Shown here one piece after another: positions 37,519-64,000 of a DNA stretch of 64,000 nt (positions are counted from its first letter, which is position 1; the number at the start of each line of letters is the position of its first letter). Position numbers and translations under genes: made by a program. The stretch lies in the NCBI RefSeq assembly GCF_000341105.1, contig NZ_ANBB01000037.1:124001-188000 (forward strand), given 5' to 3'. This DNA comes from Nocardiopsis potens DSM 45234. Its GTDB lineage: Bacteria > Actinomycetota > Actinomycetes > Streptosporangiales > Streptosporangiaceae. Below the pieces are notes generated by a model. That model was not told the DNA's origin. It searched no databases and saw nothing but the letters and a program-made list of their open reading frames with translations.

Positions 37519-37906
37519 CCGGGGAGTCGGCCAGGCGGTCGCGGCGCCGTCAGGGCGTCGAGGAAAGTCCGGACTCCACAGGGCAGGGTGGTCGGTAACA
37601 CCGACCCGGGGCGACCCGCGGGACAGTGCCACAGAGAGCAGACCGCCACCGTTCGCGGTGGTAAGGGTGAAACGGTGGTGTAAGAGACCACCAGCGGCCG
37701 GAGTGATCCGGCCGGCTCGGTAAACCCCACCCGGAGCAAGGTCGAGAAGGAGGGCTCCGGCCCTCCGCGCGGACGATCGAGGGCGGCCCGCCCGAGGTCC
37801 GCGGGTTGACCGCACCGAGGTCGCCGGCAACGGCGGCCCCAGATGGATGGCCGCCCGGCCCCTTCCGAGGGGCCGACAGAATCCGGCTTATCGGCCGACT
37901 CCCCCT
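37519..37906 (+). ncRNA. rnpB: RNase P RNA, class A
   Basis: Catalytic RNA of RNase P. Terminal P1 helix: GGGGAGTCGGCC (37521-37532) pairs with GGCCGACTCCCC (37893-37904). The 5' conserved region contains GAGGAAAGTCCGGACTCC and the 3' one ACAGAATCCGGCTTATCGG. GGTAAGGGTGAAACGGTG and GTAAACCCCACCCGGAGCAA are further class A landmarks. A T-rich tract (TTTTCTTCTTCT) follows P1. Ends are judged from the P1 helix and may be off by a few bases. Confidence 0.97.
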
Positions 37907-61340: not shown

Positions 61341-61801
61341 TTTCACCTCACTCGGAACATCCCCCGCGCGCATGCGCGGGCCTGATCGGTCGCCTGCTGT
61401 CACGACGCTGTGACGCTGTGGATCGCTCCCGGGCAGGTCGGACCCGGTCGCTTCGGCGCTGGGACGGGCGTCCCGCGTCGTTCGGGGATCGCGGGCGCCC
61501 ACGGGTCCAAGCCATACCCACCCCTCCTGCGGCCCGAAACGCGCCCGAAGGGACGTGATCGATCCGTGATGGAGGGTGTCGGTGGCCGACCGGTGCGGTC
61601 CGCTCTCTCCCCGGTCATGATCCCAGTGCCGCGCCGGTTCGGACCGCCGGGGCCCGTTTTTTCGATGCTCCCGGTATCGTTGCTGGTCGTAGCGGGTATG
61701 ACGGAGAGCGGAGCGGACCGGCTCCCCGGTGGGCTACACCACATCCACCAGAACGCGCCAGTGCTTACCGGTTTCTTATCCTGGATGTGTCAGATTCGAG
61801 A

Positions 61802-62113
61802 TGTGCGGGGTGAACGGTCCCCGCCGGCGGTTGGGGGATGCGCCGGCGGGGGCTCCCGCACAAGGGGGAATCCCGGTGGCCCGGCCCTGTTGGGGGATGG
61901 GGCCGGGCACCGGATCTCAGTCTCCCCGGTGACCTGTCGAGTTGCCGCAGGGCCCGCTCCGGCCTACGTTTGCCGGAGCGGACGGAGCCCCGGCCCCGCC
62001 TGAGGCGGGCGCTTACTCCGTCCTTATTCGGGCCGTGCGACAAAGGACAGTGCGTCCGGGGTCGAAGACGCCGCTGCCGGTGTGTTGGGGGATGCGCCGG
62101 CAGCGGCTTTTTT
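61802..62113 (+). ncRNA. Structured leader/sRNA with three identical-loop hairpins
   Basis: Part of an 804-bp gene-free stretch (61341-62144). Hairpin 1: outer TGTGCGGG (61802-61809) / CCCGCACA (61855-61862), inner CCGCCGGCG (61821-61829) / CGCCGGCGG (61841-61849), loop GTTGGGGGATG. Hairpin 2: CCGGTG-GCCCGGCCC (61873-61887) / GGGCCGGGC-ACCGG (61900-61913), loop TGTTGGGGGATG. Then CCGCTCCGGC (61954-61963) / GCCGGAGCGG (61972-61981), and GGACGGAG (61980-61987) / CTCCGTCC (62016-62023) around CCCGCC-tga-GGCGGG. Hairpin 3: GCCGCTGCCGG (62070-62080) / CCGGCAGCGGC (62097-62107), loop with GTTGGGGGATG, then six T. All three main loops share GTTGGGGGATG; none of the ORFs here is convincing. The T run fixes the sense strand as plus. 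I do not recognise it as a known riboswitch. Confidence 0.7.
62070..62113 (+). terminator. Intrinsic terminator 31 nt upstream of cutR
   Basis: 11-bp stem, 16-nt loop carrying GTTGGGGGATG, and T6 (62108-62113): a textbook Rho-independent terminator. Only 31 nt separate it from the cutR GTG, and these include the ribosome site, which leaves little room for a separate promoter; an attenuator is the simplest reading. Confidence 0.85.
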
Positions 62114-62144: not shown

Positions 62145-62798
62145 GTGCGCGTACTGGTGGTGGAGGACGAGCAGGTCCTCGCTGACACGATCGCGGTCGG
62201 TCTGCGCCGCGAGTCCATGGCGGTCGACGTGGTGTACGACGGGGACAGCGCCCTGGAGCGGACCGACGTCAACGACTACGACGTGGTCGTCCTCGACCGG
62301 GACCTGCCCGGAGTGCACGGCGACGAGGTCGCCCGGGCCCTGGTCGACCGCTCCTACGCGGGGCGGATCCTGATGCTCACCGCCTCCGGCGGCCTGGAGG
62401 ACCGGGTCGAGGGCCTCACCCTCGGCGCCGACGACTACATGGCCAAGCCGTTCGCCTTCGCCGAGCTGGTCGCCCGGGTCCGGGCGCTGTCCCGGCGCGC
62501 GGTCCCGCCGCTGCCGCCGGTGCTCAGCCGCAGCGGGATCACCCTCGACCCGGCCAACCACGTCGTCGAGCGGGACGGCCGGGAGGTGCCGCTCACCCCC
62601 AAGGAGTTCGCGGTCCTGGAGGTCCTGATGCGCGCCAACGGCACCGTGGTCAGCGCCGAGGGGCTGCTGGAGAAGGCCTGGGACGAGAACGCCGACCCGT
62701 TCACCAACGTCGTCCGGGTCACCGTGATGACGCTGCGCAAGAAGCTCGGCGACCCGCCGGTCATCCAGACCGTCCCCGGGGCGGGGTACCGGCTGTGA
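62145..62798 (+). CDS. cutR: OmpR-family response regulator, CutR-like
   Basis: 217 residues from GTG 62145, GGGAGCGAAGGG 4-10 nt upstream. Receiver domain: acidic pair Glu7-Asp8 (VLVVEDEQV), phospho-acceptor Asp51 (VVVLDRDLPG), Thr79 (MLTASG) and Lys101 (MAKPFAF). Winged-helix effector domain: LTPKEFAVLEVLMRANGTVV, then FTNVVRVTVMTLRKKLGDPP and the final VPGAGYRL. The kinase gene overlaps by GTGA. CutR identity rests on the linked sepH, hemH and phosphatase genes and on domain type; CutRS controls secretion-stress and antibiotic output in Streptomyces. Confidence 0.88.
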   Translation: MRVLVVEDEQVLADTIAVGLRRESMAVDVVYDGDSALERTDVNDYDVVVLDRDLPGVHGDEVARALVDRSYAGRILMLTASGGLEDRVEGLTLGADDYMAKPFAFAELVARVRALSRRAVPPLPPVLSRSGITLDPANHVVERDGREVPLTPKEFAVLEVLMRANGTVVSAEGLLEKAWDENADPFTNVVRVTVMTLRKKLGDPPVIQTVPGAGYRL

Positions 62799-64000
62799 GC
62801 GCCTCGGCGGGCAAGGGCGCCGACCGGCCCAGGGTCGAGCCGGTCGCCCCGGCCGGCCCGGGCGAGGTGCCGCCCACCCCGCCCGGCGAGACCGGGACCT
62901 GGCGCAGGCTCAGCGCCCCGCAGCAGGCCCCCGCCCCGGCGTCCGGGAGCAAGCTGGGCGGCTCGGTCGCCGACGGCCTGCACCGGTTCACCGACAACAT
63001 GAGCCTGCGCGCCCGGCTCACCCTCATCTACGGGATGCTGTTCTTCGCGGCGGGCTCGCTGCTGGTGCTGCTCAACTACGTCATCGTCGCGGGCGTACTG
63101 GACAACCTGCCCTTCCGCAGCAGCAACGGCCAGGAGATGGACCCCTCCGAGGTCGATTTCATCAAGAGCCTGTTCATCGAGGAGCTGCTCGCCCAGCTCA
63201 CCCGGTTCTCGGTGCTGGCCCTGGCGCTGGTGGGCCTGCTCGCGGTCGGCCTCGGCTACGCGGTGGCCGGCCGGGCGCTCTCCCCGCTGCAGAAGATCAC
63301 CCGCACCGCGCGCCGGCTCTCCGAGCGCTCGCTGCACGAGCGGATCGCGCTGGGCGGCCCCGACGACGAGATACGCGAGCTCGCCGACACCTTCGACGCG
63401 ATGCTGGAGCGGCTGGACCGGGCCTTCGACGGGCAGCGCCGGTTCGTCGCCAACGCCTCGCACGAACTGCGCACCCCGCTGGCGATCAACCGGACCCTGC
63501 TGGAGGTCGCGCTGAGCGACCCCGAGGCCTCCGCCGACCTGAAGAGCGTCGGCCGCACCCTGCTGGAGACCAACTCCCGGCACGAGCGGCTGATCGACGG
63601 GCTGCTCTTCCTCGCCAAGAGCGACCGCGAGCTGGAGGTGCGCACCGCCGTCGACATGGGCGAGGTCGCCGAGACGGTGCTCAGCCAGCACGCCGCCGAG
63701 ATCGACTCCTCCGGGCTGACCGCCCGCACCGACCTGCGCCCCGCGGCCGTCACCGGCGACCCGGTGCTACTGGAGCGGCTGGTGGGGAACCTGGTGGAGA
63801 ACGCCCTGCGGTACAACACCGAGGGCGGCGAGATCACCGTGCGCACCGGCATGTACGAGGGCGCCCCCGCGGTGCAGGTGGAGAACTCCGGCCCGGTGGT
63901 CCCGGGCTACGAGATCGAGGGGCTGTTCGAGCCGTTCCGCCGGGCCACCGGGAACCGGGTGGCCTCCGGCAAGAGCGCCGGGCTGGGGCTGTCCATCGTC
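62795..64000 (+). CDS. cutS: Sensor histidine kinase, CutS-like, C-terminus outside window
   Basis: 402 codons seen from GTG 62795, overlapping the cutR stop. Cytoplasmic Pro-rich leader (1-70), TM1 about 77-100, extracytoplasmic segment about 101-137, TM2 about 138-158, HAMP (about 159-212; ALSPLQKITRTARRLSERSL), H box with His223 (FVANASHELRTPLAINRTLL), N box Asn336 (LVGNLVENALRYN) and the start of the G box (GKSAGLGLSIV), where the window ends. The extracytoplasmic segment (about 37 residues, VLDNLPFRSSNGQEMDPSEV...) has no cysteine. Autophosphorylates and passes the phosphate to CutR. Confidence 0.9.
   Translation, partial: MSASAGKGADRPRVEPVAPAGPGEVPPTPPGETGTWRRLSAPQQAPAPASGSKLGGSVADGLHRFTDNMSLRARLTLIYGMLFFAAGSLLVLLNYVIVAGVLDNLPFRSSNGQEMDPSEVDFIKSLFIEELLAQLTRFSVLALALVGLLAVGLGYAVAGRALSPLQKITRTARRLSERSLHERIALGGPDDEIRELADTFDAMLERLDRAFDGQRRFVANASHELRTPLAINRTLLEVALSDPEASADLKSVGRTLLETNSRHERLIDGLLFLAKSDRELEVRTAVDMGEVAETVLSQHAAEIDSSGLTARTDLRPAAVTGDPVLLERLVGNLVENALRYNTEGGEITVRTGMYEGAPAVQVENSGPVVPGYEIEGLFEPFRRATGNRVASGKSAGLGLSIV

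Follow-up and report, generated by a model that had tools for sequence, protein, structure and literature searches.

A candidate leader RNA presenting the same loop on several hairpins precedes cutRS in the Nocardiopsidaceae

Results

The cutRS leader and its repeated loop

The two-component genes cutRS are preceded, in the Nocardiopsidaceae, by a conserved element that is particular to this family and was found only at cutRS: its hairpins present one and the same loop, UUGGGGGA, which is fixed while the stem of the first hairpin (HP1) drifts. Judging from sequence comparison, the element may well be a leader RNA acting in cis: a trans factor would bind its UUGGGGGA loops and so adjust passage into cutRS, with the last hairpin (HP3) often doubling as an attenuator; this is the reading we tentatively favour. 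The element probably helps the cell to set the amount of CutRS sensor that is made.

In the window (the whole stretch of DNA that was analysed, 64,000 nt) the leader is followed by an OmpR-type response regulator and a histidine kinase, as identified with Pfam (Table 1). We take the names cutR and cutS from the likeness to the Streptomyces pair; the Streptomyces genes were the best matches, at 74-76% identity. The sequence TTGGGGGAT occurs at 61831, 61890 and 62085, always on the plus strand and each time as a hairpin tip, so that three copies lie within 263 nt upstream of cutR. The expected number in the window is 0.19, and at least three copies were obtained in none of 100 shuffles. A preliminary description of this DNA had reported three hairpins sharing one loop, and all three loops are indeed at the positions it gave. 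Its coordinates also hold for HP2 and HP3, but HP1 is larger than the 61821-61849 given there: the arms of its stem are 61817-61829 and 61841-61853, and these are enclosed by an outer stem, TGTGCGGG/CCCGCACA. The stem of HP2 is unrelated to those of the other hairpins, the common part being the loop. As a whole the leader (319 nt) folds with -215.5 kcal/mol (z = -8.4 against 100 shuffles).

Table 1. Coordinates of the features of the cutRS leader and the adjoining genes in the window.
Feature	Position	Strand	Evidence
Box 1, direct repeat CTTAC-N6-CTTAT, 11-bp period, OmpR-family style; candidate response-regulator site (CutR or other)	61764..61779	+	Pattern scan
Putative extended -10 (TGT CAGATT), promoter P1	61788..61796	+	Conserved block after box 1, position by eye
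Conserved 5' module: GAGATGTGCGGGG, short spacer, HP1, C-rich 3' side	61798..61866	+	Alignment A1 (48 sequences); model R1 gives 77.8 bits here
HP1, 13-bp covarying stem, loop with UUGGGGGA	61817..61853	+	Pairing and covariation
HP2, third hairpin, same loop	61873..61913	+	Third TTGGGGGA in genus genomes and four named loci
Box 2, CTTAC-N6-CTTAT, before HP3	62012..62027	+	Pattern scan
Putative -10 (GACAAA; relatives GATAAC or GAGAAC), promoter P2	62039..62044	+	Similar block, by eye
HP3, 38-nt hairpin, same loop, sequence invariant	62070..62107	+	Orthologue identity; terminator scan match
T6 tail making HP3 an intrinsic terminator in the window	62108..62113	+	Sequence, terminator scan
cutR-like response regulator, GTG start	62145..62798	+	Pfam Response_reg and Trans_reg_C; orthologue search
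cutS-like histidine kinase, extends past window end	62795..64000	+	HATPase_c, HisKA, HAMP

Across both strands of the 6.9-Mb genome TTGGGGGAT has five matches, three of them in the cutR leader. The remaining two exact sites are not hairpin-like, one of them lying within a LysM-like coding frame, and a genome-wide loop family was rejected because these sites are unlike the hairpins. Using Rfam 15 at gathering scores, no match was found in the leader (the best sub-threshold match has E 0.36); within the window only RNase P and a tRNA were matched, both elsewhere. The former is an ordinary RNase P RNA class A at 37523-37906. The leader thus keeps its status as a candidate new structured RNA, and no paper on it was present among the literature matches listed.

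Distribution among relatives

An exact search with a 20-nt HP3 core over the genomes of 84,980 species yielded 51 loci, every one of them followed by cutR at a distance of 56-74 nt, in agreement with the linkage to cutRS that had been claimed. The carriers are mostly Nocardiopsis, but also Streptomonospora, Thermobifida, Murinocardiopsis, Marinactinospora, Allosalinactinospora, Actinorugispora and Marinitenerispora; additional records concern one Nocardiopsaceae bacterium, MAGs and one entry titled Glycomyces fuscus. The latter (L085) has the element and its kinase groups among Nocardiopsis rows, and the record is possibly mislabelled.

With the window's CutR as query, matches were obtained in 59 of 61 genomes of the order. 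The leaders of the best-matching cutR genes were read in all 59: the element is present in 32 and absent from 27, and the identity of CutR to the query is 83-100% for carriers against 69-77% for the 27 non-carriers. The loop is absent from the more distant cutR leaders, with 0 of 29 non-carrier rows having it (the 27 leaders plus those of two paralogues, L081 and L082), and likewise from the cutR leaders of ten probable Streptomyces genomes (0/10, see below). In a kinase tree of 40 carriers and 29 others, all 40 carriers fall in one group with a support of 100/100. This group also holds the non-carrier L222, which has a very long branch (4.19, with a warning from the tool), and the carriers by themselves form a group in only 6% of the bootstrap trees. 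A single origin of the element fits best.

The second hairpin has a narrower distribution. Each of the six genomes from the window's genus has a third TTGGGGGA, corresponding to HP2, as do four of the 51 named loci (L090, L095, L097 and L109), so HP2 is seen only in this genus and its close kin.

Model R1 was built from alignment A1 and searched with stricter filters against 296 genomes of the class. Scores of at least 76 bits were reached in 17 genomes, in all cases at the cutRS leaders of carriers, with HP3 as the second match in the same 17 genomes (40.9-48.3 bits). The next score after the carriers is 35.8 bits, in another genus and at an unrelated place; weak matches, up to E 0.1, in 69 non-carrier genomes look like chance. 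Within the window's genus both matches are present in 6/6 genomes, followed by noise from 24.9 bits down. In the non-carrier genome G033 a long hairpin with an exact TTGGGGGA loop is found away from cutRS (L190, middle of the locus); this hairpin, among the weaker R1 matches in the 296 genomes, is treated as chance.

Covariation and a fixed loop in HP1

Alignment A1 comprises the HP1 module of the window and 47 further loci; not included were L108, whose HP1 loop is a variant, L087 and L114, which lie at contig ends, and L128, whose module duplicates another row. Within the 13-bp stem 99.0% of the cells are paired. Both sides have changed in 8 of 13 pairs, compared to 3.8 in shuffles, and the number of cells with changes on both sides is 69 against 16.8. 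The covariation score of 0.343 (0.167 when shuffled) was reached by none of 500 shuffles, although kinship alone can lift sequences above such shuffles without any structure, an effect to which the pair count is less sensitive. The signal is lost when the partner is slid by one to three columns. Wobble pairs in the stem count 24 when read on the sense strand and 7 on the other strand, next to 17 other mismatches (ungapped count, 50 rows). Compensatory change has maintained HP1 as an RNA structure, in which the wobbles favour the sense strand.

Whereas the HP1 stems diverge, the loop UUGGGGGA is invariant in A1. Apart from L114, which a contig end truncates, 50 named loci include this loop, and 49 of them, all but L108, have it unaltered. 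The same is true of 31 of 32 orthologues, L041 having UCGGGGGA instead. Both the selection on the loop and the compensatory stem changes that the preliminary description had anticipated are thereby borne out. Homologous leaders lacking the compensatory changes as well as the loop were not encountered within the Nocardiopsidaceae; outside this family the loop is just absent.

Invariance and terminator tail of HP3

All 38 nt of HP3 are identical in 31 of 32 orthologues. Its column identity amounts to 1.00 over 52 rows, compared to 0.69 upstream and 0.46 downstream, where 20 of the 38 nt are the search word by which those loci were selected and the remaining 18 are independent. Since the sequence is identical even though the HP1 stems drift, HP3 must be constrained beyond structural need; as the whole stem is fixed, it gives no covariation of its own.

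In the window HP3 and its T6 tail (62108-62113) pass the terminator scan, and the GTG start of cutR at 62145 is 31 nt past this tail, which confirms the intrinsic terminator described before. A loose U-tail rule is satisfied by 39 of 52 copies, but a T4 run starting at most 2 nt from the stem is present in only 12, and another 12 have neither. The attenuator that had been proposed for cutRS is thus supported in part, by the window and under the loose rule, but not as a property of every copy. Given the 12 copies with neither tail, termination is not the whole conserved function: the window and some of its relatives are likely to use attenuation, the U-tract being a frequent rather than universal addition, but the shared function must use the loop.

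An exchange of arms between HP1 and HP3 was considered and rejected, as cross-pairing is on average weaker than self-pairing (means of -22.0 and -22.4 against -27.8 and -28.9 kcal/mol for the own arms). For Thermobifida the two cross pairings are -11.8 and -20.7 kcal/mol. Apparently, HP1 and HP3 prefer to fold locally.

Direct-repeat boxes and putative promoters

Both HP1 and HP3 are preceded by a promoter-like box (Table 1), two features that the preliminary description had missed. After each box follow a -10-like block, a G-rich start and then the hairpin; RNA from P1 would be expected to start near 61801-61804. A sigma-70 scan found no promoter. The pattern YTTAY-N6-YTTAY precedes the HP1 loop by 65-67 nt in 48 of 50 rows, the remaining two, L087 and L117, lying at contig ends; upstream of the HP3 loop it is found at a distance of 70-76 nt, in 44 of 52 rows. 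The box 2 pattern is missing from L084, L087, L094, L096, L107, L121, L130 and L131 and also, by eye, from L015.

Leaders without the hairpins have the box as well: it lies 40-137 nt before the start in 27 of the 29 hairpin-less rows (shuffle rate 0.0005 per leader), none of which has it on the other strand, and 89-147 nt before cutR in 10/10 f20/g87 genomes (looser pattern, counted without a shuffle control). These genomes are taken as probable Streptomyces because all nine CutS segments read have two cysteines. Since HP1 and HP3 each lie downstream of a box that also precedes hairpin-less cutR genes, the leader appears to consist of two tandem promoter-hairpin units.

In the window's genome YTTAC-N6-CTTAY has four matches, of which two are in the leader. 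As a reversed control pattern gives seven, the box alone is no regulon marker, and at the other genomic boxes (L235 and L238) no similar hairpin was seen by eye in 260 nt. According to PMC12802291 and PMC10433416, CutR of Streptomyces binds upstream of cutRS; the former gives TAWATAAA as the motif at all enriched promoters except that of cutRS, where CutR binds. The box CTTAC-N6-CTTAY is a candidate for this CutR site, for which the published motif does not account, and CutR may bind at box 1.

Sensor domain of CutS

CutRS has been studied in Streptomyces as a sensor of secretion stress that also affects antibiotic output (PMC12802291 and PMC10433416), and two redox cysteines are described for Streptomyces CutS in PMC12802291. 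Cysteines are absent from the CutS sensor segments of all 40 carriers read (of 51) and of 20/20 non-carrier relatives, so these homologues may sense something else. A link between the element and redox sensing was rejected, as the cysteines are missing in carriers and non-carriers alike and hence their absence is not tied to the element.

Discussion

How the favoured cis-acting leader might operate can be outlined as follows. The leader would have two promoters in tandem, both governed by direct-repeat boxes of OmpR-family type; their RNAs would start shortly before a strong hairpin, and each of these hairpins would display the loop UUGGGGGA. A trans-acting factor, either a protein or a C-rich RNA, would recognise the loop, and its binding at HP3 would alter how frequently RNA polymerase or the ribosome enters cutR; where the U-tract is present, termination at HP3 would represent the off state. 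CutR itself might drive both promoters, in which case the hairpins would brake an autoregulated operon. The invariance of HP3 over its whole stem is not required by loop binding alone and counts against this reading, as do the scarcity of T-runs directly at the HP3 stem, the copies that lack a U-tail, the rows in which box 2 departs from the pattern and the negative sigma-70 scan. Possible, though doubtful, is a stronger proposal, namely a new class of signalling leader RNA that arose when a promoter of a response-regulator operon was duplicated together with its hairpin, each transcript then beginning with a hairpin that shows the same G5 loop. A dedicated RNA-binding factor, or else 6C RNA, would read this loop and brake the sensor after transcription start, and HP3, frozen over 38 nt, would serve as the main receptor site.

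Among the other explanations, the G5 loops might be docking sites for 6C RNA, with GGGGGA:UCCCCC loop-loop pairing at HP1 and HP3 regulating cutRS. 6C RNA is found in the window's genome and in all eight known carriers examined (G000, G124, G008, G143, G073, G102, G006 and G010), and in 19 of 22 sequences its second loop is UCCCCC, which can form six base pairs with GGGGGA; no 6C loop could be read for L147. The discussion of a comparative-genome paper also presents 6C as a suggested regulator of multiple genes, tied to protein secretion in M. smegmatis (PMC9569102). However, 6C and its UCCCCC loop are equally common in relatives without the element, so that nothing covaries; moreover, UCCCCC is absent from L140 and L144 and six pairs with 6C would not fix the flanking UU. 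Overall, we consider such docking unlikely. The same holds, in our judgement, for HP3 as a constitutive attenuator or terminator that limits read-through into cutRS, the shared loop having arisen by copying between hairpins. This would agree with the terminator scan, with the 39 of 52 copies under the loose rule and with the HP1 stem of Marinactinospora (L100), which is nearly that of HP3, as well as with L015, in which both hairpins are the same 38 nt. Nonetheless, HP1 keeps its loop and covarying stem in the window without a terminator tail, 12 of 52 HP3 copies have no U-tail, and copying is at odds with HP1 stems that diverge while the loop does not and with the different stem of HP2.

A double-stranded operator, conserved as DNA in the form of an inverted repeat bound by a repressor, could account for an HP3 that is invariant across its arms. 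But an operator would keep its arms, whereas those of HP1 change in step and stay complementary, HP2 shares the loop only and the wobble pairs favour one strand; this reading fails on the HP1 covariation and is very unlikely. The put RNAs of phage HK022 act in cis on polymerase. By analogy, the hairpins might allow passage of the HP3 terminator, and HP1 does lie at the very start of the putative P1 RNA, with a terminator-like hairpin following in most species. Given that HP3 has the same loop and is itself the terminator, an action of this kind seems highly improbable. Hardly more can be said for the release of a short RNA, ending at HP3, that would titrate a protein in trans. Where the U-tract exists, terminated products of ~60 or ~310 nt are predicted from the putative starts. 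However, no target set is seen in the window's genome, as the two further TTGGGGGAT sites are not hairpin-like and R1 finds nothing else above noise, and CsrA was not found in any of 16 carriers. The sponge of the CsrB type that the preliminary description had suggested as a parallel is therefore rejected (PF02599 in 0/16 carrier genomes, while it was detected in 3 of 14 control genomes).

Summarizing, the putative cis-acting leader with its fixed, repeated loop provides a small, testable handle on how cutRS sets its own level, in a whole family of actinomycetes that includes Thermobifida fusca. A loop-binding factor, if one is found, would add a new RNA-binding partner to genomes that are without CsrA and are not known to encode Hfq.

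Several known systems resemble the leader in part. The CsrB/RsmZ sponge RNAs and the CsrA leader sites likewise have repeated hairpins with GGA in the loop. Two tandem hairpins with identical loops are found in the Guanidine-II (mini-ykkC) riboswitch, but its loop is ACGR instead of UUGGGGGA and the leader has no Rfam match. With attenuator leaders and intrinsic terminators the element shares the HP3 hairpin with U6 in the window, although a fixed loop is unneeded for termination and the U-tract of HP3 is not conserved. A leaderless uORF attenuator was rejected: the ATG reads ACG in 4 of 48 rows, and the distance between ATG and loop occurs in all three frames (29, 11 and 8 rows). 6C RNA (RF01066) consists of actinobacterial hairpins with homopolymeric loops, complementary in sense to the loop of the leader, but is a separate gene; the leader as a 6C RNA was rejected at 25.3 bits on the minus strand, against a gathering score of 47. 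The second 6C loop is AUCCCCCC in L148, L152 and L153 (window's genus) and in L139 (another genus), which extends the complementarity to GGGGGAU by one base relative to the 6C loop of the window's own genome.

The closest resemblance is to the ANTAR-target dual hairpins (EutV, NasR, AmiR), which according to PMC3369931 also combine two leader hairpins, the same conserved loop residues, a position adjacent to a terminator and a link to two-component systems. The loops defined there have six nucleotides, of which the first is A and the fourth G; UUGGGGGA, invariant in A1, fails this hexaloop definition, and the leader was rejected as an ANTAR-target RNA. The loops in the cutRS leader are 168-320 nt apart in 50 rows (104 in L015), and CutR, unlike the ANTAR regulators, has a DNA-binding Trans_reg_C domain. 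We rate the element as new in being a previously unlisted candidate cis-regulatory leader RNA, and as of a known kind in belonging with leaders that repeat identical loops, for which the ANTAR-target dual hairpin is the nearest working parallel.
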